Assembly (NCBI GenBank): GCA_937893735.1
Contig: CALBGD010000328.1
Coordinates: forward strand, 1-18,330
DNA: 18,330 nucleotides
Reading direction: 5' to 3'
Source of the DNA: an uncultured Clostridia bacterium
GTDB taxonomy: Bacteria; Bacillota; Clostridia; Oscillospirales; Ruminococcaceae
The notes below the pieces were generated by a model that made no database searches, was not told where the DNA came from, and was given only the letters and a program-made list of their open reading frames with translations. Every line of letters starts with the position of its first letter. The stretch's first letter is position 1. Below are positions 835 through 17,801 of this stretch, one piece after another. The position numbers and the translations under genes are program-made.

Positions 835-879
835 CTATATATGGTTATATAAAAGCAGACAACTCAGGAGGTGTTGGAA

Positions 880-1506
880 GTGAATGGTAATTTATTGCAG
901 ATAACGACGATCCCGATAAATATCGAGATCAAGGTAACGAACGCGAAGTTCCAGTTTCCGGACGCGACAGAAAGACAGCCTAAGGTGAACATCACCACAA
1001 AGAACGGCGAGTACATCATGAAGGCAGACCCGATAAAGGTCAACATCGACACCTATCAGGCGAGAAAGAGCCTTGGCTACGGCCACATGACCGACGGCGA
1101 CATGATGAAGCAGAAGGCTCAGGAGGGCTGGTCGCTGGCATTCCAGGGGACGGCAAAGGTCGCCTCTGAGGGAAACCAGCTTGCACGCGGAATGTCCCCG
1201 GCTGAAATAGCTATCCAGAACGCGCGCGCAGGTGCAACGGTGGAGACCGTCATGGAGTTCCTGCCGAAGGAGGGCGCCGACATCACATTTGACGGCGGCA
1301 CGCTCAGCATAGACTACCAGATGGGCGATCAGGAGATCGACTGGGATATCATGAACCATATGAAGATGGAATTTGTTCCGGGAAGCGTTGAGATCATCAT
1401 GAAGGACAGACCCAGAGTAGAGATAGAGTATCTCGGCGGGCCTATCTATTTCCCGAGAAGCTCCGACCCGAACTACGAGCCGCCGCTGCTTGATGTAAAG
1501 GGCTGA
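880..1506 (+). CDS. YviE-like protein (DUF6470 family) of the flagellar operon
   Basis: This is a 208-residue protein without signal peptide or membrane segment. It resembles the family that sits between flgL and fliW in Bacillus (YviE), whose role is not established. Visible features are an N-terminal beta-rich stretch (LLQITTIPINIEIK), a central basic/amphipathic part (TYQARKSLGYGHMTDGD), and a C-terminal beta-rich region that is Pro-rich at the end. Start choice: the reading frame is open from GTG 871, but AGGAGG occupies 866-871. GTG 880 lies 8 bases beyond it and is the plausible start; TTG 874 is too close. It ends 23 bases before fliW and is probably co-transcribed with it. The family assignment rests on gene order plus general resemblance. 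Confidence 0.75.
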   Translation: MNGNLLQITTIPINIEIKVTNAKFQFPDATERQPKVNITTKNGEYIMKADPIKVNIDTYQARKSLGYGHMTDGDMMKQKAQEGWSLAFQGTAKVASEGNQLARGMSPAEIAIQNARAGATVETVMEFLPKEGADITFDGGTLSIDYQMGDQEIDWDIMNHMKMEFVPGSVEIIMKDRPRVEIEYLGGPIYFPRSSDPNYEPPLLDVKG

Positions 1507-1529
1507 TACGCAGCCTGAAAGGAATGCCT

Positions 1530-1958
1530 ATGAAGATCATTACAAGAGATTTTGGTGAGCAGGAAGTTGACGAAAGCAAGATCATCACTTTCCCGCAGGG
1601 TATAATCGGTTTTGAGGACGCGAAGAAATACGCGCTGCTGAGCCCTCTCGGTGACGGAGTGTTTCCGATGTGGCTCCAGTCCGTGGATTCAAGGGAACCG
1701 TGCTTTGTGGTGTACGACCCGATGGAGATATACTCTGACTACCGTTTTGAGATATCCGACGAGGAGCAGGCGCTTCTCGGAATAGACGAGAATGCCGCTT
1801 ACAGATGTCTCGCAGTGGCTATCGTTCCGGACGACTACAAAAAGACCACCATAAATCTCAGATGTCCTATCGTGGTTAACACCAAGTCGCGTGTGGCCTC
1901 TCAGGTTGTTCTGACGGAGCACTTCGACTTCAAGGCGCCGGTCTACGAGGAGGTCTGA
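1530..1958 (+). CDS. fliW: Flagellar assembly factor FliW
   Basis: In Bacillus, FliW is a cytoplasmic protein that binds either flagellin or CsrA. When free flagellin is scarce, FliW sequesters CsrA and thereby relieves repression of flagellin translation. The 142-residue protein has the family hallmarks: an N-terminal KIITRDFGE strand, FPQGIIGFEDAKKYALL at about residues 20-36, a WLQS...CFVVYDP block at about 48-63, and a C-terminal part containing NLRCPIVVN. An ATG at 1524 is also in frame, but it directly abuts the AAAGGA ribosome site at 1518-1523. ATG 1530 has a 6-base spacer and gives the usual FliW N-terminus. Its stop lies one base before the csrA start, so the two partners are probably made in fixed proportion. 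Confidence 0.95.
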   Translation: MKIITRDFGEQEVDESKIITFPQGIIGFEDAKKYALLSPLGDGVFPMWLQSVDSREPCFVVYDPMEIYSDYRFEISDEEQALLGIDENAAYRCLAVAIVPDDYKKTTINLRCPIVVNTKSRVASQVVLTEHFDFKAPVYEEV

Positions 1959-1959
1959 A

Positions 1960-2193
1960 ATGCTCGTTGTAACAAGGAAAACTGACGAGAGCCTTGTAAT
2001 CTCGGACAACATCGAGATAACCGTGCTTGAGATCGGCAAGGATAAGGTCAAGATAGGCATAAACGCTCCAAAAGAGGTAAAGATCATCAGAAGCGAGCTG
2101 AAAGACGCGCGCCAGACGAATGAGCAGGCTGCTCATGCTTCCGGCGCTGCAATAGCTGAGCTCCTGAAACAGCATAAACAGGAGGAAAACTGA
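1960..2193 (+). CDS. csrA: Carbon storage / translational regulator CsrA
   Basis: CsrA is a homodimeric RNA-binding protein that binds GGA motifs near ribosome sites and usually represses translation; in flagellated Bacillota the main known target is flagellin mRNA. The 77-residue protein starts MLVVTRKTDE, with R6 and R44 (in VKIIRSE), the two positions known to contact RNA in other CsrA proteins. The GINAPKEV core is also present. The C-terminal tail is longer than in E. coli (61 residues), as is common in Bacillota. Its ribosome site GAGGAGG lies inside the end of fliW (start one base after the fliW stop), and its own stop is one base before fliD. Translational coupling across fliW-csrA-fliD is likely. 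Confidence 0.97.
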   Translation: MLVVTRKTDESLVISDNIEITVLEIGKDKVKIGINAPKEVKIIRSELKDARQTNEQAAHASGAAIAELLKQHKQEEN

Positions 2194-2194
2194 C

Positions 2195-4609
2195 ATGGCA
2201 GTAAATAACATCAGACTTGGCGGTCTGACCTCTGGTTTTGATACTGAGGCTATGGTTTCTCAGCTCCTTTCATCTTACCAGACAAGGATCGACAATCAGA
2301 ACAAGAAGCTCACGAAATTATCGTGGCAGCAGACGGCTTACCAGGATATCACAAAGAAGATAACCGAGTTCAAGAACACCTACTTCGATATCTTAAAGCG
2401 CGATACCTACCTGATGAGCCCGACTTCTTTCAATAAGTACACTTCCGCTATTACCGCGGCAAATAATGCGGATACCACGGGGCTTACAGTCACCACGACT
2501 TCAAGCTCATCTGCGGGAAGCTACAAGGTCAAGCTCTCACAGCTTGCGACAGCAACAAAGGCAGAGGGCAGCGCCCTTTCAATGGGCAACTTCAGTCTTG
2601 ACCTTGACAAGGCTATCGCCAGCTCCGGCGGGGAGATAACCACCGCCGATGACGGCAGCAAGACCCAGAAGTTCAGCATGGCGCTGGATGTCCAGGTCGG
2701 CAGCGTTAAGAAGACCGTTGAATTCGATGTTGACGCGGTGCTTGACGCGGACGGAAACATTGCAAGCACGGACGACCTGAAGAAGAACATAGTTTCCGCG
2801 CTCAACACAAAGCTTCAGGAGAGCTTCGGCTACTCCGGAAGAAAGGACGGCGCTACCGGTGCGACTGACGCAAACGGCAACGAGTGGTATCTTCAGGCAG
2901 AGCTTGATTCCAACGGAAACGCACAGTTCAAGGTAGGCGGAAATTCTTCCGTTACCATCGCGGAGAACAAGGGCAGCTTCGGACTTAATAAGCCCAAGGC
3001 AAAGACTGCCATCTCCATCGGCAGCGTTGTCACCGGCAAGAACACATTCTCCGTTGAGATAGGCGGAAAGACCCATCAGCTCAGCTTTGACGGCGTGTCC
3101 ACCACATATTACGACAGCCGAAATCTTTCTGGCAACGAAGCAGTGCTGAAAGAGTTCAACGATCTGAAAGCGGCTTCCTACCGCAAGGCTAATCATCTGG
3201 CTGCTGACGCTACTGTAACCTCCAACCAGCTTGAAGCATATACATACACAAGCGAGCAGGCGGCAAAGGACAAGAACACCGCTGCACTCACAGAGGCGCT
3301 CAAGGGCATTGACGGCTACACCTTCACGCTGGACGGCTCCTACCTGACGGCAAAGGACAGCAGCGGAAAAAGTGCGGATTTCGCCATCACGGCGATCGAC
3401 GGCGGCACCCTCGGACTTTCCAAGGCTGCGGCTTCCAACAAGGCTAACTCAAATGCAAAGCTGTCCGACCTCGGCTTCAAGGCTGACGATGACGGCAAAT
3501 ATACAATGACCATCAACGGCAAAAAGATCACCGTTGACAAGGACGCTACGGTTTCTTCGCTTATGGCGGCAGTAAACAAGTCTGACGCGGGCGTTACCAT
3601 GACATATTCCACCCTTACCAACAGCTTCACAATAGAGGCCAACGAAAAGGGCGGCGCAGGAAAGGTCGAGGTAGAGGCTAACGACCTCACAAAGGGTCTT
3701 GGTCTTGCGGACGATAATGGCACGATAGGTCTGAAGCAGGGTCAGAATGCAATATTCGAGATAAACGGTCAGGAGATCTACCTGAACGACAACACGTACA
3801 CACTTGACGGCACCACCTTCACATTCAATGACAACATGAAGACAGGCGAGGAATACACCGTCAACGTAACCAAGGACAACAGTTCTGTCAAGGAGACTTT
3901 AAAGAAGTTCGTTGAGTCCTACAACAAGCTTATCGAGGACGTTTACGACTACATCGGAAAGTCCCCGGCGGAGGATTCCGACGGCAACAGATACGAGCCG
4001 CTGACCGACGCCGAAAAGGAGGACATGAGCGAGGACGAGATAACCAAGTGGGAGGAGAAGGCAAAGCAGGGCGTTCTCTACAATGATTCCACGGTGTCCA
4101 CGATCATGAGCAAGATGCGTTCAGTGCTGTATGAGAGCGTAACTCTTGATGACGGAAACAAGTTCGGCATTTACAGCATGGGCATAAAGACCTCCAGCGA
4201 GTGGAGCGAGCATGGCAAGCTGGAGATAGACGAGGACGCATTCGACAAGGCGTTCGAGAACAACTCCGACGCTATCGTAAAGCTGTTCACCGATACCACC
4301 TCCGGCGTTATGACAAAGCTGAACAAGGTCATCGACGGCGCAGTAAAGAGCTCCGGCGCGGCTGAAAACAGAGGTACTCTGGTGCAGAAAGCCGGCAAGG
4401 CTGACAGCTCCGTTACCACGGACAGCACCATCTACAAGCAGATGGTAAAGATGCAGGAGCGCCTGAAGGAGCTCCAGAACAGATACGATGATAAGGAAGA
4501 GTACTGGTGGAAGGTATTCACCAACATGGAGACCGCAATGAGCGACCTCAACAGCCAGACCAGCTACATTTCCCAGTATCTCGGGGGCGGCACAAGCAGC
4601 TACCAGTAA
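2195..4609 (+). CDS. fliD: Flagellar filament cap protein FliD (HAP2)
   Basis: FliD forms the cap at the filament tip under which exported flagellin folds. The 804-residue protein starts with the FliD_N signature (NNIRLGGLTSGFDTEAMVSQLL, then Q/K-rich helices to about residue 110). A flagellin IN-type motif (YTMTINGKKITVDKDATVSS) lies at about 434-490. The FliD_C domain runs from about 515 (QNAIFEINGQEIYLND) to the end, finishing in a long helix with the WWKVFTNMETAMSDLNSQ segment. FliD of Bacillus or E. coli is about 470-500 residues. The extra 300 residues lie in the Gly/Asp/Ser-rich middle (about 120-510), which is expected to be solvent-exposed variable domains. It is preceded by AGGAGG at the end of csrA and followed 24 bases later by fliS. 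Confidence 0.96.
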   Translation: MAVNNIRLGGLTSGFDTEAMVSQLLSSYQTRIDNQNKKLTKLSWQQTAYQDITKKITEFKNTYFDILKRDTYLMSPTSFNKYTSAITAANNADTTGLTVTTTSSSSAGSYKVKLSQLATATKAEGSALSMGNFSLDLDKAIASSGGEITTADDGSKTQKFSMALDVQVGSVKKTVEFDVDAVLDADGNIASTDDLKKNIVSALNTKLQESFGYSGRKDGATGATDANGNEWYLQAELDSNGNAQFKVGGNSSVTIAENKGSFGLNKPKAKTAISIGSVVTGKNTFSVEIGGKTHQLSFDGVSTTYYDSRNLSGNEAVLKEFNDLKAASYRKANHLAADATVTSNQLEAYTYTSEQAAKDKNTAALTEALKGIDGYTFTLDGSYLTAKDSSGKSADFAITAIDGGTLGLSKAAASNKANSNAKLSDLGFKADDDGKYTMTINGKKITVDKDATVSSLMAAVNKSDAGVTMTYSTLTNSFTIEANEKGGAGKVEVEANDLTKGLGLADDNGTIGLKQGQNAIFEINGQEIYLNDNTYTLDGTTFTFNDNMKTGEEYTVNVTKDNSSVKETLKKFVESYNKLIEDVYDYIGKSPAEDSDGNRYEPLTDAEKEDMSEDEITKWEEKAKQGVLYNDSTVSTIMSKMRSVLYESVTLDDGNKFGIYSMGIKTSSEWSEHGKLEIDEDAFDKAFENNSDAIVKLFTDTTSGVMTKLNKVIDGAVKSSGAAENRGTLVQKAGKADSSVTTDSTIYKQMVKMQERLKELQNRYDDKEEYWWKVFTNMETAMSDLNSQTSYISQYLGGGTSSYQ

Positions 4610-4633
4610 TAAATAAGAACCGAGGGTAAAACC

Positions 4634-5041
4634 ATGTCGAATCCCTATGCAGCATACAAAAAGCAGTCAGTTTCCACTATGACTCCGGTAGAGGTGGTCA
4701 TCAAGCTGTACAGCGAGACCGAGCGCCAGCTCGCCATCGGCGTCAGCGCGATAGAAGAAAAGGATATCATGAAGGCGCACACCTCGCTTGTTAAGGCGCA
4801 GGAGCTTCTCGGGGCGCTGCGCGGCGCGCTGGATATGGATATCCCGATATCCAAGAATCTCGATCAGCTCTACGATTTCTTCCAGAGGACAGCCGAAAAG
4901 GCTAACATGAAGAAGGACGCGGCAACCGCAGAAGAGGTAAAGAAGATCATTCCGATGATAGCAGACCTCCGCGACGCGTTCACCCAGATAAGCCAGATGA
5001 CCAAGGAAGAGATAGAGGCGCAGGCGAAGGGAAAGAAGTAA
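4634..5041 (+). CDS. fliS: Flagellin export chaperone FliS
   Basis: FliS binds the disordered C-terminus of flagellin in the cytoplasm, prevents early polymerisation and escorts flagellin to the export gate; in Bacillus it also contacts FliW-flagellin control. The 135-residue helical protein begins NPYAAYKKQSVSTMTPVEVVIKLY, the characteristic FliS N-terminus (Y-x-x-x, T-P-x-x-L/V-x-x-x-L-Y). Four amphipathic helices follow, with a Lys-rich tail (AKGKK). The ribosome site GAGGG lies about 9 bases upstream of ATG 4634. The fliD-fliS order is the standard one. Confidence 0.95.
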   Translation: MSNPYAAYKKQSVSTMTPVEVVIKLYSETERQLAIGVSAIEEKDIMKAHTSLVKAQELLGALRGALDMDIPISKNLDQLYDFFQRTAEKANMKKDAATAEEVKKIIPMIADLRDAFTQISQMTKEEIEAQAKGKK

Positions 5042-5074
5042 GCGTATTTTCTGAAAGTTCAGGGAGGTGTTATT

Positions 5075-5560
5075 ATGGCAGAACTTAAAGGCTGCGAGGC
5101 AGTTATCGAGGTGATGAAACAGATCATCGATGTGCTGCTGGAATACGAAAAGCAGACGGACGCCATGAGTAACGCGGATCTGGAAACGCTTCAGGAGGCG
5201 CTGCTGGCGCGCAACGAGCTCATCGGAAAGCTGGAGGAGCTGAAAGACCAGCTCGACGAGATAATAGAGCTTGAGACGAGCGATGAGCGCATACTGCTTA
5301 AAACGCTTGTCCATGGCAGCTATGTCAATGCCCCCCTGGACGAGGATCACAAGAAGGTCGAGCTTTTACAGCGAAACATCACTGTCATCAAGCAGCGCAT
5401 AGTCGATAAGGATAATGTCATATCCGGGCAGTTCAAGAGCCAGCACGTTGATTCACGCAAGGAGCTTGAACAGCTTAAGCAGACTCGCCAGAAGATCGGA
5501 TATTATAACAGCTCTGTCGTTGGCAGGGCGACCGGTCAGGCACTCAACAAGAACCTATAA
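5075..5560 (+). CDS. Flagellar chaperone of the FlgN/FliT type
   Basis: This is a 161-residue, almost wholly helical, charged protein with heptad-like patterns (residues ~8-35, 40-70, 95-140) and no membrane segment. Such proteins are type III chaperones: FlgN serves FlgK and FlgL, FliT serves FliD. The position directly after fliD-fliS matches fliT of enterobacteria, while the length and the C-terminal KIGYYNSS segment look more like FlgN. I therefore give no symbol. The ribosome site AGGGAGGTG lies 6-7 bases before ATG 5075. It is the last gene of the flagellar unit, and a strong terminator begins 6 bases after its stop. Confidence 0.7.
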   Translation: MAELKGCEAVIEVMKQIIDVLLEYEKQTDAMSNADLETLQEALLARNELIGKLEELKDQLDEIIELETSDERILLKTLVHGSYVNAPLDEDHKKVELLQRNITVIKQRIVDKDNVISGQFKSQHVDSRKELEQLKQTRQKIGYYNSSVVGRATGQALNKNL

Positions 5561-5565
5561 CTCTC

Positions 5566-5597
5566 ACCACCCGCAGCCCTGTTGCGGGTGGTTTTTT
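5566..5597 (+). terminator. Rho-independent terminator of the flagellar operon
   Basis: A 10-bp stem, ACCACCCGCA (5566-5575) with TGCGGGTGGT (5583-5592), has a 7-base loop and is followed by six T (5592-5597). The stem is perfect and GC-rich. It separates the flagellar genes from the promoter at 5672. Confidence 0.95.
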
Positions 5598-5671
5598 CTG
5601 CCAAATAATTTTTAGAAGGATTGTGCATTATCGCGAAAAAAAACAAAAAGTAACAAATCTGCACAAAGCGC

Positions 5672-5700
5672 TTGAAAAAATCGGGAATTTACTGTATAAT
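5672..5700 (+). promoter_or_regulatory. Vegetative (sigma-A type) promoter of the EAL-HDOD gene
   Basis: The -35 is TTGAAA at 5672-5677 and the -10 is TATAAT at 5695-5700, with a 17-bp spacer. A-rich DNA at about 5634-5656, upstream of the -35, could act as an UP element. Transcription would start near 5707, leaving a short leader of about 33 bases before ATG 5740. Confidence 0.88.
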
Positions 5701-5739
5701 AGTTATACATAAGCCATCACAAGCAGAGAGGTGATTTCA

Positions 5740-6954
5740 ATGAATGTCTACATGGCGCGTCAGCCGATATTTGATACACATAATCATGTATACGGTTATG
5801 AACTGCTATACCGCAGCAATGACAAGAAAAATGAATATACCGGGCTTAACGGCGATGAATCCACTGCGGACGTTGTAACAAATGCGTTTTTCGGACTGAA
5901 TATCAAGGATATAATCGGCAACGGAAAGGCGTTCATAAATTTCACGGCCAATCTGCTTAAGCACGGCGTTCCCAAAATGATATCCCCTGAGCTGGTGGTG
6001 GTTGAGGTCCTTGAAAATCTGCTGATGGACGATGAACTGCTTGCCGCCTGTCAGGATCTAAAGGAGCGCGGCTACACGCTGGCGCTGGACGATTTTGAGT
6101 ACGACAACAGTTACAGCGACCTGTTCGAGCTGGGAGATATCGTTAAGATAGACTTCCGCACATCGAAAAAATCCATTGAGGACACAGCATATATCTGCCG
6201 CTACTCTAATAAGGTCCTGCTGGCGGAGAAGATAGAGAGCCGGGAAGAGTTCGAATACGCGAAGAGCCTCGGGTGCAGCTATATGCAGGGCTATTATTTC
6301 GCGAAGCCGACTATAATGTCTAAAAACAGCCTCACCCCTCTGCCAGTGAATTTTATGAAGGTGATGCAGCTCGTTTCCCAGCCGGAGCCCGACCTTGAAG
6401 AGATAATCGAGGTCATCTCCTGCGATACGGCAATGTGTCAGCGGCTGCTCAGGCTTATAAATTCCGTGTATTTTGGTGTGAAGAACCGCGTCAGCTCCAT
6501 AGGTCAGGCGCTTGTTATCCTTGGACTGGACTACCTGCGCGACTGGGTTTACCTGATGGGAATGCAGCGTATAGTCCGCTGTGATAACGTTGAGATAATG
6601 CGTATCTCCTGCCTGCTGGCGAAATTCTGCCGTCAGCTCGCGCTGATGATACCGCAGGCGGCTCCGGATTCGGATTCCTACTACCTTATGGGGCTGCTTT
6701 CAATGGTCGCATGGGGCGGCGAGCAGGCGCTCAGCCAGACGCTGGAGGAATTTCCGCTGACTAACGAGATAAAGGACGGACTTCTCGGCAGGGGCGGAAT
6801 TTACAGCGATGTATACGACCTTGCCTACTGCTATGAAAAGGCGGACTGGGCAAGCGTAGATAAATATGTTGAGAAATATCATCTGGACAGCTCCCTTGTT
6901 GCAGAGGAGTTTGTCAAATGTGTGAAAGAGGCGGAGCGCATCAGAATGATGTGA
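5740..6954 (+). CDS. EAL-HDOD signalling protein (YuxH/CdgJ-like)
   Basis: EAL domains hydrolyse or sense cyclic di-GMP, and HDOD domains are phosphohydrolase-like protein-interaction domains; proteins with this pair affect motility in several bacteria. The 404-residue protein has EAL at about 1-200. The usual ligand positions are largely kept: E21 (ELL in place of EAL), N67, E89, D117-D118, K136, E163 and Q183 (QGYYFAKP). The catalytic loop reads DDFEYD rather than DDFGTG, so activity is doubtful and sensing is plausible. HDOD covers about 200-390 (SCDTAMCQRLLRLINSVYFG). The open frame extends to GTG 5731, but AGAGAGGTGA at 5725-5734 is the ribosome site for ATG 5740. It has its own promoter just after the flagellar operon and lies 18 bases before the next gene. 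Confidence 0.9.
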   Translation: MNVYMARQPIFDTHNHVYGYELLYRSNDKKNEYTGLNGDESTADVVTNAFFGLNIKDIIGNGKAFINFTANLLKHGVPKMISPELVVVEVLENLLMDDELLAACQDLKERGYTLALDDFEYDNSYSDLFELGDIVKIDFRTSKKSIEDTAYICRYSNKVLLAEKIESREEFEYAKSLGCSYMQGYYFAKPTIMSKNSLTPLPVNFMKVMQLVSQPEPDLEEIIEVISCDTAMCQRLLRLINSVYFGVKNRVSSIGQALVILGLDYLRDWVYLMGMQRIVRCDNVEIMRISCLLAKFCRQLALMIPQAAPDSDSYYLMGLLSMVAWGGEQALSQTLEEFPLTNEIKDGLLGRGGIYSDVYDLAYCYEKADWASVDKYVEKYHLDSSLVAEEFVKCVKEAERIRMM

Positions 6955-11741: not shown

Positions 11742-12692
11742 ATGTTTAAGAAGGCAGCAGCGCTGTTACTCGGCGCAGTTATCATGGCGGCTTCGTCGAC
11801 AGTCACATTCGCGGAGAGCGCACCGGTGCAGACCGTTGTATGCGAGCAGGAGCTCGGAGCTTCCGCAGCAAAGGTATGGGACGGAAAGACCAAGCTGGAA
11901 TCCGGCAAGAGCTACGTCCTCAAGAAGAGCGCTACCATCACAAGCGCTTTCACAATTCCCAAGGGAACAACACTCACCCTGAACAAGGGCGCAAAGCTCA
12001 CCATCGGCAAGAAGGGCAAGCTCACCGTTAACGGCACGCTTACCGCAAAGGCTGGCTCCACCATCGTCGTTTCCGGCAAGCTGGCGCTTGGCAAGACCTC
12101 CAAGGATACTTTCGGCGGAAAGCTGACAGTAAACAAGAGCGGCGCGGTTTCCGGCACTCCCAAGAGCGTTAAGCTCGGCAAGAACGCCGCTGTGACCGTA
12201 AACGGCAAGAACACCTGCAAGAAGCTCGCGGCTCTGCTCGGCTCCACCGATGCCACCGCACAGGATAAGAAGGACATCGAGGCTGTTCTCAACGCATTCA
12301 TGAAGGATATCGCCGCAGGCGACATCACAGGCGCGCTGAAGAGCGTATATCCCGAGCAGTACGTTGACCAGCTCAACGAGGCGTTCAAGGCTTACGGAAT
12401 GACCCTTGACGAGTTCTTTAAGGCTTCCTATGACCAGATGCTGGCAGAGTACGGCATCACGGCTTCCGATATCCAGAACAACATCGACAAGGCTTCCGTC
12501 GTTGTTACAAAGCTCACCGACTACACCAAGGACATGACTGCTGAGGAAAAGGCTGTATTTGACGGCTGCGGCGATATCACCAAGGCTTACATAGCTGACA
12601 TTGCGGGCTACGTTGACGGCAAGGCTCAGGACGGCTCAGCAGCGCAGGTAAAGGTCGCTAAGGTCGGCGGCAAGTGGTATATCTGCGGCTGA
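11742..12692 (+). CDS. Secreted protein: beta-solenoid repeats plus NTF2-like domain
   Basis: This 316-residue exported protein begins with a signal peptide (MFKKAAALLLGAVIMAASST..., cleavage likely after TFA at 22-24). Residues about 58-155 are short Gly/Lys/Thr-rich beta repeats (TLTLNKGAKLTIGKKGKLTV pattern, about one turn per 8-10 residues), typical of right-handed beta-solenoids. Residues about 172-316 are helical, then beta, ending VKVAKVGGKWYICG, the usual end of NTF2/SnoaL-like domains. No anchor is seen. The function is unknown; binding to wall or polysaccharide is only a guess. AGGAGGG lies 8 bases before ATG 11742. It is probably in the same operon as the Rsm22-type gene (64-base gap, no terminator) and is one base from the next start. 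Confidence 0.8.
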   Translation: MFKKAAALLLGAVIMAASSTVTFAESAPVQTVVCEQELGASAAKVWDGKTKLESGKSYVLKKSATITSAFTIPKGTTLTLNKGAKLTIGKKGKLTVNGTLTAKAGSTIVVSGKLALGKTSKDTFGGKLTVNKSGAVSGTPKSVKLGKNAAVTVNGKNTCKKLAALLGSTDATAQDKKDIEAVLNAFMKDIAAGDITGALKSVYPEQYVDQLNEAFKAYGMTLDEFFKASYDQMLAEYGITASDIQNNIDKASVVVTKLTDYTKDMTAEEKAVFDGCGDITKAYIADIAGYVDGKAQDGSAAQVKVAKVGGKWYICG

Positions 12693-13394: not shown

Positions 13395-13423
13395 TTGACA
13401 ATTCGGCAAAAATGATATATAAT
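13395..13423 (+). promoter_or_regulatory. Perfect-consensus vegetative promoter
   Basis: TTGACA (13395-13400) and TATAAT (13418-13423) are both exact consensus with a 17-bp spacer. Transcription should begin near 13430, giving a leader of about 108 bases before ATG 13538. It is the strongest promoter in the window by sequence, so some control at the leader is plausible. Confidence 0.93.
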
Positions 13424-13446
13424 AGATAAGGTTTTCAGAGTAAGGG

Positions 13447-13514
13447 GTGTGCTATGCCCTGTCCATCTGATGACCGGAGAGAGTTTATTGGGGCTGTGAA
13501 GTCAGCCCGCACGC
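13447..13514 (+). promoter_or_regulatory. Structured 5' leader RNA of the DUF4430 operon
   Basis: GTGTGC (13447-13452) pairs with GCACGC (13509-13514, one G-U pair) to close a multibranched region. Directly next to the closing stem is a perfect 6-bp hairpin, GGGCTG (13491-13496) with CAGCCC (13503-13508), loop TGAAGT. A weaker hairpin with a bulged C can form at about 13461-13474. GGG at 13444-13446 could instead pair with CCC at 13457-13459, opening the closing stem, which would make a two-state switch. The ribosome site GGAGG at 13524 lies just outside. It matches no riboswitch class I recognise; cobalamin-riboswitch core blocks are absent. Confidence 0.5.
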
Positions 13515-13537
13515 ATTTATATTGGAGGATAAAAGAA

Positions 13538-14443
13538 ATGAAATTCACAAAGATCATCGCAGCATTTGCAGCTGCGGCTGTTGCGGCAAGCGCAGCTTCC
13601 TTCTGCGTATCCGCAGAGGAGAACGAGCCTGCCGGCTACGTTTATTTCACCGCTGAAAAGACAACTATCGGTCAGGGCTTCACCGTAGAGCCGACAAAGG
13701 TTCCTTTCTATGAGGGCGACACAGGCCTCGACGTTGTTGAAAGAGCTGCTGAGGTACTTACCGAGACAACAGATTACGGCGCATACATCACAGCATTTGC
13801 TGACGAAGATATCGACACCACCGTTCCCGAGGAGATCCAGGCAGTTTGCCCCGAGATGACAGGCAGAACACAGGAAGGCTACCTAAGCAACTTTGACTAC
13901 ACCGCAGAAAGCGGCTGGAGCTATTTCATCAACGATGACTACGCACAGGTAGGCATCGGAGACTATGTTCCCACAGACGGCGATGTTCTGCGCTTTGCGT
14001 TCACCGTATACGGCTACGGCGCTGACCTCGGCATTGACAACTCTTCCTGGGGCGGCGTGGCTGCGCTGGTTCCTGCAACAAACAAGGCTGAGCTCATAAG
14101 ACTCTGCGCAGAGCTTAAGGACGTTGACACAGATGACGAGGCTTTCCAGTATACTTACACAGCAGCTATGGAGGCCCTTGCAGAGTACAACGTTCCGCAG
14201 GAGGATATAGACAACGCTGTTGCAAGCCTTACTGACGAGATCGCAGTTCTGGCTCCCGCTGCAACAGAGGAGACCGCTGACGTTACTGCTGAGGAAGTTA
14301 CCGCTGAAGACGGCACCGTTGAGGCAGACGTTTCCGCTGATACCGGCAAGGGCTCTCCTTCCACCGGAGTTGAGGGCGTTGCGGTTGCATTCGCAGTTGT
14401 CCTTCTCGCAGGCGCAGGCATTGCACTGAGCAAGAAGCAGTAA
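13538..14443 (+). CDS. Wall-anchored DUF4430 (transcobalamin beta-domain-like) protein
   Basis: This is a 301-residue exported protein. Its signal peptide covers residues 1-26 (cleavage near VSA-EEN). A DUF4430 domain at about 30-165 contains GWSYFINDDYA and GDVLRFAFTVYGYGADLG, the pattern of the C-terminal beta domain of transcobalamin and intrinsic factor. A helical FIVAR-like module lies at about 183-237, followed by a Thr/Glu/Ala-rich linker and SPSTG (273-277), a hydrophobic span and KKQ, which together form a sortase sorting signal of LPxTG type. I infer a surface protein that binds a small ligand, possibly a corrinoid. ATG 13538 is chosen from GGAGG 9 bases upstream and the immediate signal peptide. 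An in-frame ATG at 13454 with AAGGGG before it would add 28 residues. Confidence 0.85.
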   Translation: MKFTKIIAAFAAAAVAASAASFCVSAEENEPAGYVYFTAEKTTIGQGFTVEPTKVPFYEGDTGLDVVERAAEVLTETTDYGAYITAFADEDIDTTVPEEIQAVCPEMTGRTQEGYLSNFDYTAESGWSYFINDDYAQVGIGDYVPTDGDVLRFAFTVYGYGADLGIDNSSWGGVAALVPATNKAELIRLCAELKDVDTDDEAFQYTYTAAMEALAEYNVPQEDIDNAVASLTDEIAVLAPAATEETADVTAEEVTAEDGTVEADVSADTGKGSPSTGVEGVAVAFAVVLLAGAGIALSKKQ

Positions 14444-14446
14444 TCA

Positions 14447-16048
14447 ATGAAACGGTTTATCCGAATATTCACGGCGGTCTGCATGGCCATTTTTCTGGCG
14501 GTGCAGACCGCTTTTTCCGCCTCGGCAGAGGAATCCGGCTGGCTTTCTGCGGCAGACGAGTGCTTCGGCTGGCTGACCGCACAGCGCGGCACGGAGGACT
14601 TCTGGGACGATCTGGAGTACAAGAGCGCGGACTGGTCGGTGTACTGCCGCGCGAAGCTTTATGGCGCGGAGGGCTCAGAGCACTACATCGCCACGGCTCA
14701 GCGGCGCTTGCAGGAGCTTGCGGAGACAGATGGCTTCGTTAAGCCCACTGACTTCCAGCGGCTGGGGATAATCCTTGCGGCGCTCGGTGCGGACGGGTCC
14801 CGGGCGGCGGAGCTTGGAGCCTATAATAACTCACAGCTCGGCAGGCAGGGCTTCAACGCGTATATCTGGGCGCTTATCGCGATAAACGTCACCAGAGCGG
14901 AGCAGCCTGAAAATGCGCTCAACACAGCGGAGAGCCTTTCGCAGTATATTATTTCGCAGCAGCATGAGGACGGCAGCTTTGCCCTTTTCGGCGACGCGGG
15001 GGACGTGGATATCACTGCGGCTGCGGTGTATTCTCTTGCGGATTCCGGCATTCCGGGGGCGCGGGAGTCTGCGCAGCGCGGCGCGGACTGGCTCGCGGCA
15101 ATAGACGGAATGTACTGCTCCATGGGTACGCCTACCTGTGAAAGCACGGCTCAGGCGGTCATAGCCTACTGCGCTCTCGGAATGACAGAAAAGGCTCAGG
15201 AGGCGGCAGAGCAGCTCAGGCAGTACCAGCGGGAGGGAGGCGGTTACGCCCATCTCCTTGACGGCGATGTAAACGGGCTGGCTACCGTCCAGACGCTGGA
15301 GGCATTCACGGCGCTGGAGCTCTCAGGGCGGGGAGAAGCGCTGTTTTCTGCGGCGGAAAAGCTCCCGGCGGCACCGGAGACCGTTGATACCTCCACGGAA
15401 GAAGTTGTGCAGGAGCCGCAGGAGAGCGTGGCTTCCGGGTTCACGGGAGGTCAGATAAAGCTGATCATTTCAGTCATCGCGGGTATAGCGGCGGCGGTCT
15501 GTTCAGTCTGCTTCATAATCAGGAGGAAAAAGGCGCTTATTCCGGCGGCTGTGGCGCTCGCAGCAGTATGCGGCGGGGTCTGGCTGCTGGATATCCGTAC
15601 CCCGGAGGAGTACTATTCCGGCGGAAATGAAGGCTCGCTTGTGGTGGAGATATCCGCAGAATGCACGTCAGTCCTCGGGAAAATGGACAGCATAGACAGC
15701 GCCGTGAATCCTCCGGAGCTTATTCCGGAGGACGGCGTTGTTATAAGCCGCTGCGAGGTCTCCCTCCCGGAGGGCGCAACGGCATTCGACGCGCTTATCG
15801 AGGCTGCGCGGCAGCAGCGCGTGCGGGTGGACTATACCGGAGCAAGCTCCATGGGAACCTACGTCAGCGGCATCGGCGGCATATACGAGTTCGGATTCGG
15901 AGGGCTCAGCGGCTGGATGTACCGCGTGAACGGCGATTTCCCGGACGTGTCGTCCGCCGATATTACGCTGAACTCCGGCGATATCGTGGAGTTCGTGTAT
16001 ACCTGCGACCTCGGGCACGATGTGGGGGAAAATTACACGGCGCCTTGA
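14447..16048 (+). CDS. Transcobalamin-like alpha/alpha-barrel plus DUF4430 membrane protein
   Basis: This 533-residue exported protein has a signal peptide (1-27). At about 30-300 lie helical repeats with QxxDGSF and GGGYAHLLDGDVNGLATVQTL, typical of the prenyltransferase/terpenoid-cyclase barrel that also forms the alpha domain of transcobalamin. An acidic linker (310-333) leads to two membrane spans (337-358 and 363-381) joined by RRKK. DUF4430 follows at about 396-523, with SGWMYRVNGDFPD and SGDIVEFVYTCDLGHD. Alpha-then-beta is the transcobalamin order, and the two spans place both domains outside. Four bases separate it from the previous stop. No ribosome site is evident, so coupled translation is likely. 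I infer a corrinoid or similar ligand-binding protein; a bound ligand cannot be proved from sequence. Confidence 0.82.
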   Translation: MKRFIRIFTAVCMAIFLAVQTAFSASAEESGWLSAADECFGWLTAQRGTEDFWDDLEYKSADWSVYCRAKLYGAEGSEHYIATAQRRLQELAETDGFVKPTDFQRLGIILAALGADGSRAAELGAYNNSQLGRQGFNAYIWALIAINVTRAEQPENALNTAESLSQYIISQQHEDGSFALFGDAGDVDITAAAVYSLADSGIPGARESAQRGADWLAAIDGMYCSMGTPTCESTAQAVIAYCALGMTEKAQEAAEQLRQYQREGGGYAHLLDGDVNGLATVQTLEAFTALELSGRGEALFSAAEKLPAAPETVDTSTEEVVQEPQESVASGFTGGQIKLIISVIAGIAAAVCSVCFIIRRKKALIPAAVALAAVCGGVWLLDIRTPEEYYSGGNEGSLVVEISAECTSVLGKMDSIDSAVNPPELIPEDGVVISRCEVSLPEGATAFDALIEAARQQRVRVDYTGASSMGTYVSGIGGIYEFGFGGLSGWMYRVNGDFPDVSSADITLNSGDIVEFVYTCDLGHDVGENYTAP

Positions 16049-16080
16049 TGTAATCCGTTTCACAAATCTGTATTTTGCAC

Positions 16081-16100
16081 AAATATTCCGGAGAATTTTT
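16081..16100 (+). terminator. Weak terminator candidate after the DUF4430 operon
   Basis: AAATATTC (16081-16088) pairs with GAATTTTT (16093-16100) with one mismatch around the loop CGGA. The stem is AT-rich and the T-run is within its 3' arm. It is the only terminator-like element between the stop at 16048 and the promoter at 16136. The rest of that gap is AT-rich and shows nothing else. Confidence 0.4.
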
Positions 16101-16135
16101 GTTGAAAGCGTATGTGCGAAAATGCCGGTTGCTGC

Positions 16136-16164
16136 TTGCAAATAGAGCTGAAATATGATATAAT
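16136..16164 (+). promoter_or_regulatory. Vegetative promoter with extended -10
   Basis: TTGCAA (16136-16141) and TATAAT (16159-16164) have a 17-bp spacer, and TGA just before the -10 gives an extended -10 element. Transcription should begin near 16171, immediately upstream of the leader hairpin at 16180. Confidence 0.88.
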
Positions 16165-16179
16165 TTAATAGAATTATAT

Positions 16180-16212
16180 GGCGCAGTGCGCAGGGGAGAA
16201 TGTGCGTGTGCC
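16180..16212 (+). promoter_or_regulatory. Long bulged hairpin in the leader of the membrane-protein gene
   Basis: The outer stem GGCGCA (16180-16185) pairs with TGTGCC (16207-16212). After a bulged G (16186) the inner stem TGCGCA (16187-16192) pairs with TGTGCG (16201-16206). The loop is GGGGAGAA. This gives twelve pairs including G-U. The loop exposes GGA, and the ribosome site AGGAGG (16225-16230) carries another, an arrangement similar to CsrA-controlled leaders. The hairpin may instead simply stabilise the 5' end of the mRNA. There is no T-run, so it is not a terminator. Confidence 0.55.
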
Positions 16213-16238
16213 GTTCAGAGTACTAGGAGGAAAACCAA

Positions 16239-17801
16239 ATGACATCTGCCACAGTAAACAACGGCGTTGCAGCAAAGCAGCCGCTGAGCCACAAGACAGT
16301 TGGCATCGGCATGATCGCTTTCGCTGTGATCGAAGCTGTTGTTACGTTCTTTATGGTGATGAAGCCGCTTTTCATCAACCCCGTATACACACAGTGCGCT
16401 GCCTACAATGAAGAGGGCAAGGCTTGTATCGTAAAGCTTTTCGGCAAGACTTTCGCTTCCGAGGCTGAGATCGCCAACAACCAGATAATCCTTTCCCTCT
16501 GGGATACGATCATCAACATCGCCCTTATCTACGTTGTTATCACTGGCATTCTGGCGCTGCTTGCCGTATGCTACTACAAGGGGTTCGCGTTCGCGAAGTC
16601 CTATCTTATCGCTGTTTTCGGTGCCAAGACGCTTATCGCGCTGGTTCCGATCATGATCCCCTTTGCTAATTTCAGAAACTCCATGCGTATCTTCGGCGCT
16701 GTTGATGCGATCGTCTGCTTTGCAGCGTGCATTTACTGCATTTATCAGAGCAATCTCGAATATGCGGACGATATGCTCCTTACACCCGAGCAGATCGCAG
16801 ACATGAAGAAGCGCGGCATGACCGGCGGCTTATTCTTCCTGATGACTGTTGCAGCCTGTGTATTCGCGGCATTCGGCATGGGCGCCTATGGCAATATCGG
16901 CAACTCCGGCGGAAACTGGTCCATCGTTATAGGCTGGCTGGACGACACCGGTATCGCACAGGGCACCGTTCTTATGCTGATCATGGCGGCTGCGCTCATC
17001 GGTGCCATCACCTATGTGCGCGAGGGCGAGTGGGCTATGATCTACTTCTTCTCCTTCGGCGCTGCTATCACAGTTACAAACCTCATCGGAATCATCTTCA
17101 GATTCCTGTGGGTAGCCAAGACCTACAACCCCATGAAGGCTCTTGCTAAGTCCGGCGACGCTGACGCTACCGCTTGGCTCGGCTCAAACGGAATGACCTC
17201 ACGCTGGTGGATGACCACCATATTCCTTATCCTGTCCTTTGTGGCTGCCGCTGCGCTGACCGTTATGGCATTCGGCAAGATAAAGAAAAAGCTCACTTTC
17301 CACATCACTGAGGCTGAAAAGAAGCCCGCTATTGCGGTTCTTATCGGCTGCGGTTCCATCATTCTCAGCTTTGTGCTGACAATGATCGCAGTACTCATGT
17401 GGGATAAGCAGCACTACACCGCTGTCACACTCGGCGCAATGGACTATATGTACTTCATCGCTTACGGCGGTATCACACTGTTCCTTGCTATTGCAATGTG
17501 GTGTGGTTACAGCTTCACCAAGTTCGGAACACTGGCGCTTTACCTGATGATCGCTTCCTGCAACTTCTCTACGATCTTCACCGTATTCGGCGAGAGAAGC
17601 ACTAAGGTTGCAAACTCCATCGCAGAGCGTGACGCAGCTATCGCACAGGGTCTGTCCGAGATCCCCCGCGTATTCAAGGGCAGCAACTACATAATCTGCG
17701 GCATACTGTTCATACTTTCTGTTATTGCCTGTCTTGCTATCATAGCAGTGTTCGTTGTAAAGGAAGTAAGCAACTATATGTACCAGAAGCGTTACTCATA
17801 A
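16239..17801 (+). CDS. Polytopic membrane protein of unknown function, ~12 TM
   Basis: I do not recognise this 520-residue protein. About twelve hydrophobic spans lie near residues 20-42, 92-113, 119-141, 150-170, 195-215, 243-260, 264-292, 325-345, 362-386, 403-422, 428-449 and 484-508. The first loop (43-90) contains C53 and C63. A charged cytoplasmic-type loop follows span 4 (EYADDMLLTPEQIADMKKRG), and KIKKK follows span 8. A Gly-rich loop (GMGAYGNIGNSGGNW) follows span 5. No ABC, MFS, ECF or transferase motif is visible, so transporter is only a guess. ATG 16239 lies 8 bases after AGGAGG. It forms a single-gene unit with its own promoter, leader hairpin and strong terminator, suggesting separate and possibly high expression. 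Confidence 0.82.
   Translation: MTSATVNNGVAAKQPLSHKTVGIGMIAFAVIEAVVTFFMVMKPLFINPVYTQCAAYNEEGKACIVKLFGKTFASEAEIANNQIILSLWDTIINIALIYVVITGILALLAVCYYKGFAFAKSYLIAVFGAKTLIALVPIMIPFANFRNSMRIFGAVDAIVCFAACIYCIYQSNLEYADDMLLTPEQIADMKKRGMTGGLFFLMTVAACVFAAFGMGAYGNIGNSGGNWSIVIGWLDDTGIAQGTVLMLIMAAALIGAITYVREGEWAMIYFFSFGAAITVTNLIGIIFRFLWVAKTYNPMKALAKSGDADATAWLGSNGMTSRWWMTTIFLILSFVAAAALTVMAFGKIKKKLTFHITEAEKKPAIAVLIGCGSIILSFVLTMIAVLMWDKQHYTAVTLGAMDYMYFIAYGGITLFLAIAMWCGYSFTKFGTLALYLMIASCNFSTIFTVFGERSTKVANSIAERDAAIAQGLSEIPRVFKGSNYIICGILFILSVIACLAIIAVFVVKEVSNYMYQKRYS

Follow-up and report, generated by a model that had tools for sequence, protein, structure and literature searches.

The closest described relatives of the locus considered here are the secreted SLBB/toroid proteins of low-GC Gram-positive bacteria reported by Burroughs et al. 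in 2007 (PMC1796856). As that paper describes them, they are often accompanied by a second SLBB protein and generally have CbiO and CbiQ genes alongside, and their hosts are usually without key enzymes of B12 synthesis; it was proposed there that they scavenge B12 or its precursors. Measured corrinoid binding comes from BtuG, which captures B12 at the surface of gut Bacteroides (PMC6143338). The energy-coupling factor (ECF) transporter ECF-CbrT of Lactobacillus delbrueckii, deposited as a vitamin B12 transporter (PDB 6fnp), carries cobalamin and cobinamide (PMC5997447). The present analysis concerns two adjacent genes, A and B, in an 18,330-nucleotide (nt) stretch of DNA from an uncultured Clostridia bacterium (contig CALBGD010000328.1), referred to as the window. 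Judged from sequence, their products quite likely work as a pair at a Gram-positive surface to capture a corrinoid, either cobalamin or a precursor.

In the mechanism proposed, a wall-anchored A, with its DUF4430 domain, and a membrane-anchored B would bind the corrinoid. B would close its barrel and beta domain on the ligand, as transcobalamin does, with a hairpin joining barrel to DUF4430 so that both face outward, and the pair would hand the corrinoid to a membrane importer. We infer all three of corrinoid binding, hand-over from A to B and an importer in the window's clade. An earlier note on this DNA had already suggested corrinoid capture, and that interpretation is indirectly supported by cobalamin riboswitches before related genes, by CbrT-like ECF modules in 10 of 18 related loci and by structural matches to the transcobalamin family. 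Its observation as a whole is partly confirmed.

Domains and structure of A and B

Gene B (14447..16048, forward strand, like every feature given below) encodes 533 amino acids (aa), comprising a signal peptide (a hydrophobic N terminus), an alpha/alpha barrel, a transmembrane hairpin and a DUF4430 domain. The barrel (14528..15337, about residues 28-297) is of the terpenoid-cyclase type (PF13249, E 3.3e-8), as previously noted, and the DUF4430 domain, which resembles the beta domain of transcobalamin (15773..16003, residues 443-519), is matched at E 9.1e-14 with 52.1 bits against a gathering score of 23.8. Between them lies the hairpin (15446..15589, residues 334-381), recognized both by hydropathy, as segments 340-358 and 363-381 with RRKK between them, and in the structure model, as helices at 334-359 and 364-380. 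By the positive-inside rule, RRKK in the turn of the hairpin suggests that barrel and DUF4430 both face outward.

Gene A (13538..14443, 301 aa) encodes a predicted exported, wall-anchored DUF4430 protein (PF14478, NF033846) with a hydrophobic N terminus. Its start is likely at 13538, which is preceded by GGAGG, the mechanical open reading frame start at 13454 being less likely. The DUF4430 match (13889..14005, residues 118-156; E 3.7e-9, 37.3 bits against the same gathering score of 23.8) covers the second half of the PF14478 model, and an NPXTG-type sorting signal (14354..14437, residues 273-300) reaches 27.2 bits with NF033846 (cut-off 23.5). Domain matches, hydrophobic N termini and predicted anchors thus bear out the claim that both proteins carry DUF4430 and, by prediction, are exported. 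The further claim, that the pair reproduces both domains of transcobalamin, stands in that both domains are present, but it is B alone that carries the two.

The structure prediction and comparison with transcobalamin proposed in the earlier note support a kinship of fold. In a Foldseek search of the PDB with the model of B, nine matches reach E<=0.001, every one of them a transcobalamin, intrinsic factor or haptocorrin chain, and at ranks 1-9 both domains fall within one alignment of 475-554 columns. Taken alone, the barrel has numerous terpene cyclases and sugar-processing enzymes among its matches, and members of the beta-grasp superfamily at large probably bind a variety of ligands (PMC1796856), as might be expected if A and B were generic surface proteins, such as adhesins or glycan binders, with a DUF4430 and a barrel unrelated to corrinoids. 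That explanation is very improbable, given that the model of B matches transcobalamin-family chains alone at this threshold and that the relatives of the pair are linked to cobalamin riboswitches and CbrT-like ECF genes.

Transporters and riboswitches at related loci

A scan of species genomes yielded 18 loci (L001-L018) encoding relatives of B, 17 of them in Clostridia-type records, mostly uncultured metagenome-assembled genomes, and one (L017) in Ureibacillus massiliensis. The B relatives of L001-L007 are 40-60% identical to B, and those of L008-L018 are less closely related or align with only a portion of it. In ten loci (L008-L017) relatives of the EcfT and EcfA of L008 lie downstream of B or of its DUF4430 half. 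In seven (L001-L007) that place is taken by gene C, a membrane protein gene also found in the window, and L018 has neither gene C nor ECF genes.

The S components of the ten ECF-linked loci are similar to one another, and PDB entry 6fnp, ECF-CbrT, is the best match of all three that were compared (E 2.3e-12 for L009, 3.4e-4 for L008 and 2.9e-8 for L017). Pfam recognizes ABC ATPases in L008 and L009 and S-component families above cut-off in L008, L009, L012 and L017; its CbiQ family matches the EcfT of L015 and L017, and no family matches that of L008 or L009. A co-occurrence with B12 ECF transporters, for which a search had been suggested, is thus found as a CbrT-like module behind the pair in these ten loci. 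The ligand had been left open because no transporter adjoins the pair in the window; the distant relatives have one.

Three of the ECF-linked loci (L013, L015 and L017) have the two domains in separate genes: a barrel gene with SLH repeats and an adjacent DUF4430 gene, whose product has an N-terminal hydrophobic segment, stand directly before the ECF genes. Among these three, the barrel profile is above its curated cut-off in L017 only. L013 and L017 have an additional large SLH protein upstream, with two DUF4430 stretches. The window's B appears to be a barrel/DUF4430 gene pair of this sort merged into one gene, the hairpin lying at the junction. Since one lineage has the two domains in a single chain and another has them in adjacent genes, they probably act together. 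In the barrel, His269, Asp188, Ser233 and Gln236 do not vary across 54 aligned sequences, and the DUF4430 signature of S488, W490 and Y492 is invariant in 53 aligned domain-bearing sequences, ECF-linked L008-L012 included. The alignment of B used for folding holds, as its L013 row, the barrel gene without DUF4430.

The relatives are also linked to the cobalamin riboswitch. Of 17 loci searched with cmscan, nine have RF00174 before the related genes: before gene A in four of eight (L003, L006, L007 and L008) and in five of nine further loci (L010, L011, L013, L017 and L018). L005, whose contig begins inside A, was left out, and L012, L014 and L015 seem to end short of the full upstream region. 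At the level of whole genomes (G001-G011), five of 11 (G003, G005, G006, G007 and G009) have a single riboswitch match, directly before DUF4430 genes; G001, G002 and G008 have none, G004 has two, located elsewhere, G010 has 5 and G011 has 7. For G001-G004 and G011 the riboswitch scan scored just 104 of the first-look candidates. A genomic association with B12 uptake is thus found in relatives through both riboswitches and CbrT-like ECF genes.

The family of G003 offers a larger sample: among its 148 genomes, DUF4430 occurs in 73 and RF00174 in 101. Among the matches listed, 33 of 150 riboswitches (in 33 genomes) are followed within 7 kb by a DUF4430 stretch in the same orientation, where about 0.13 such pairings would be expected from uniform placement in 2.3-Mb genomes with genome kinship ignored; for none of the 150 is the nearest DUF4430 in that range antisense or upstream. 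In 16 genomes of the family (G050, G088 and G028, for example) a DUF4430 stretch follows 285-707 nt behind a cobalamin riboswitch, and in 13 of these 16 the open frame is just 143-228 aa long. From that length, DUF4430 proteins of this short, stand-alone sort seem to represent a pared-down version of the same design.

Promoter, gene C and candidate importers in the window's clade

Genes A and B point in the same direction with 3 nt between them, behind a sigma-70-type promoter (13395..13423; consensus TTGACA-17-TATAAT) that matches 12 of 12 consensus positions with a 17-nt spacer, as perfect as the earlier note had called it. A promoter scan of 3.8 kb gave 3 candidate sites against 1.8 expected from shuffles, the remaining two scoring 10 and 9. 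Identical boxes and spacing precede gene A in six of seven relatives covered (L001-L004, L006 and L007; L005 was left out), and were not found 5' of gene A in the seventh, L008. The 114-nt leader (13424..13537), which the note had described as structured, does not stand out as such: its minimum free energy is -32.3 kcal/mol (z -1.54), 16 of 200 shuffles are equally stable, and no Rfam family matched. A hidden cobalamin riboswitch in this leader was looked for and rejected, none appearing at the gathering cut-off or at E<=5.

A cobalamin riboswitch occupies the equivalent place in L003, L006 and L007. In L003 about 40 nt separate the aptamer match from the end of a promoter resembling the window's. 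Leader length, counted from the -10 box to the gene start, is 284 nt in L003, 365 in L006 and 215 in L007, where the riboswitch is found; the distance is 114 nt in the window and 59 nt in L001, where it is not, and roughly 53 in L002 and 44 in L004, for which an approximate start was used. On the simplest reading, the promoter would have been kept and the aptamer between it and gene A lost. Since none was found in the window or in three close relatives, the window operon is probably not regulated by B12 through a riboswitch. L003, L006 and L007 keep theirs although gene C occupies the place of the ECF module.

Gene C (16239..17801, 520 aa) encodes an orphan protein with about 12 transmembrane segments by hydropathy and no Pfam family. 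In keeping with the earlier note, no ECF or ABC transporter gene follows the pair in the window. Gene C is preceded by a separate promoter-like site (16136..16164; 10 of 12 positions, extended -10), and a similar sequence was read by eye in the B-C gaps of L001-L007. In the gap itself (16049-16238 of the window, and L001-L007), the common TATAAT-type promoter is accompanied by a TGCACAAATAT box, which is part of a palindrome in L006. In a possible 5' hairpin there, both partners differ in 3 of the 10 predicted base pairs among 7 sequences (L005 left out).

Each of G001-G006 carries a single copy of gene C beside A-B, and a search for it in G007-G011 gave no match. Three of the 148 genomes of the G003 family match it: G003 itself, G110 (27% identity, away from A-B) and G015 (a short match). 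A profile search gave 144 members among 7997 scored candidates, with no Pfam domain in the 120 members listed. The structure model (pLDDT 87.8, pTM 0.85) has no significant PDB match, and among its weak VIA rows are tetraspan-type pieces as well as several MFS-type transporters. Standing next to A-B throughout L001-L007, gene C is no more than a candidate partner of the pair. That it is a membrane partner having taken over corrinoid import from a lost ECF-CbrT module is nevertheless unlikely; in that case the gene C family would have replaced ECF-CbrT in the window's clade, giving a new type of corrinoid importer that works with capture proteins.

Other routes of import were sought in the gene-C genomes, G001-G006. 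Each has one CbiQ-type EcfT match, which could be an undercount because the CbiQ profile misses the EcfT of L008 and L009; that of G003, the sole one whose neighbourhood was read, adjoins a fused EcfA and a truA-like gene, both named by eye. With 5-6 S-component matches per genome, 33 in total, a shared ECF module working with another S component is possible. None of the 18 S components (of the 33) searched for likeness to CbrT matched that family (tblastn, E<=0.01), and the 8 of these 18 scanned with NCBIfam were below every cut-off listed. A CbrT identity was rejected for three S components compared with the PDB (two from G003 and one from G005), whose best matches are RibU (E 2.4e-22), a thiamine transporter (0.004) and 4hzu (1.9e-6), not 6fnp. 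FecCD, the BtuC-type permease family, had no match in five of the six gene-C genomes and is present in G004 only. There, two divergent cobalamin riboswitches lie near a FecCD-type permease gene (L109, G004:C22:22000-34000), with CbiC on the same contig.

A need for corrinoids can be read from the same 11 genomes. CbiC, a marker of ring synthesis, was found in three (G004, G010 and G011) and not in the other eight, and a B12-binding domain is present in ten, a combination that fits corrinoid users not making the ring. NrdJ was found in two genomes (G010 and G011). The one open reading frame examined (L112, its start cut off) has MetH as best match, at 372.6 bits, below the NCBIfam cut-off of 1010.85.

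Several observations weigh against corrinoid capture. The model of B has a pTM of 0.57, and the relative placing of its domains differs from that in the nine transcobalamin-family chains (root-mean-square deviation 10-17 A, TMq 0.25-0.37); because this arrangement is uncertain, the closed cleft between barrel and beta domain is a proposal. In VIA-align the barrel of B best resembles terpene cyclases and fills the list, so that no transcobalamin row stands among the best 50 matches. RF00174 was not found in the window, nor an ECF module at its locus, and cmscan did not find the riboswitch in L001, L002, L004, L009, L012, L014, L015 or L016. In the G003 family, 40 of the 73 DUF4430 genomes are without a listed riboswitch before the gene. 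G006 had neither a B12-binding domain match nor an NrdJ match, and the relatives compared are mostly metagenome-assembled genomes.

Some of these observations would also fit a pair that descends from a corrinoid capture system and has become decoupled from import in the window's clade, where it would hold corrinoid at the surface, as a store or in scavenging for other uses, or would have taken another ligand. The operon is without a detected riboswitch in the window, L001, L002 and L004, no ECF genes follow B in L001-L007, and the scarcity of FecCD points the same way. Such decoupling is rather unlikely, since three members of that gene-C clade (L003, L006 and L007) retain the riboswitch before A, and the three signature residues of DUF4430 are as invariant here as in the ECF-linked loci.

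Elsewhere in the window, a flagellar cluster (871-6954) encodes FliW, FliD and FliS together with DUF6470 and an EAL/HDOD protein. A DUF4878 protein with a hydrophobic N terminus (11742-12692) is encoded between Rsm22-type and phosphopantetheinyl transferase genes and is 38-47% identical to its counterparts in L001-L004.

Comparison with described capture systems

The protein kind is already known as a prediction, B12 scavenging having been proposed for it in 2007 (PMC1796856). Like the operons described there, the window has a secreted SLBB/DUF4430 domain with a toroid, a second paralogous SLBB protein and a Gram-positive anchor, with the same predicted role. The alpha/alpha toroid of the transcobalamin-like SLBB clade is found at residues 28-297 of B, the second extracellular SLBB protein is A, which adjoins it, and the wall anchor of A and membrane anchor of B place both at the surface by prediction. 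The window's clade differs in that a membrane hairpin links its toroid to SLBB and that gene C is found in place of the adjacent CbiO/CbiQ genes, whose ECF type is seen in L008-L017. The pair thus probably serves corrinoid capture, as a variant on the kind predicted in 2007.

The word 'riboswitch' does not occur in PMC1796856. No report of a riboswitch link of SLBB/toroid proteins, and no experimental test of transcobalamin-like SLBB proteins, was found in the literature searched, which left most subscription papers and the whole of bioRxiv outside. New here are the riboswitch and CbrT linkage of the relatives and a clade with catchers but no adjacent importer. The two links firm up the 2007 prediction and name precise proteins for a test, and the clade that keeps its catchers with no neighbouring importer raises the question of which permease imports the corrinoid.

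ECF-CbrT (6FNP, PMC5997447) resembles the system through the S components of L008, L009 and L017, whose best match it is. It differs in having no counterpart beside the window pair; in the relatives, the capture genes are followed directly by those for T, A and S. Among functional analogues whose binding has been measured, BtuG comes closest: as described in PMC6143338, it too is a surface catcher of B12, is encoded in loci regulated by B12 riboswitches and works with an importer, but it is a Gram-negative surface lipoprotein for which the authors state that they found no homologues outside Bacteroidetes. In domain plan the nearest counterparts are animal transcobalamin, intrinsic factor and haptocorrin, which, like B, hold a barrel and a beta-grasp domain within one chain. 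Their identity to B is 11-15%, and they are soluble, whereas A and B are predicted to be wall- and membrane-anchored, and the membrane hairpin between the domains is a feature of B. Here, then, is a bacterial pair built like the animal carriers of B12.

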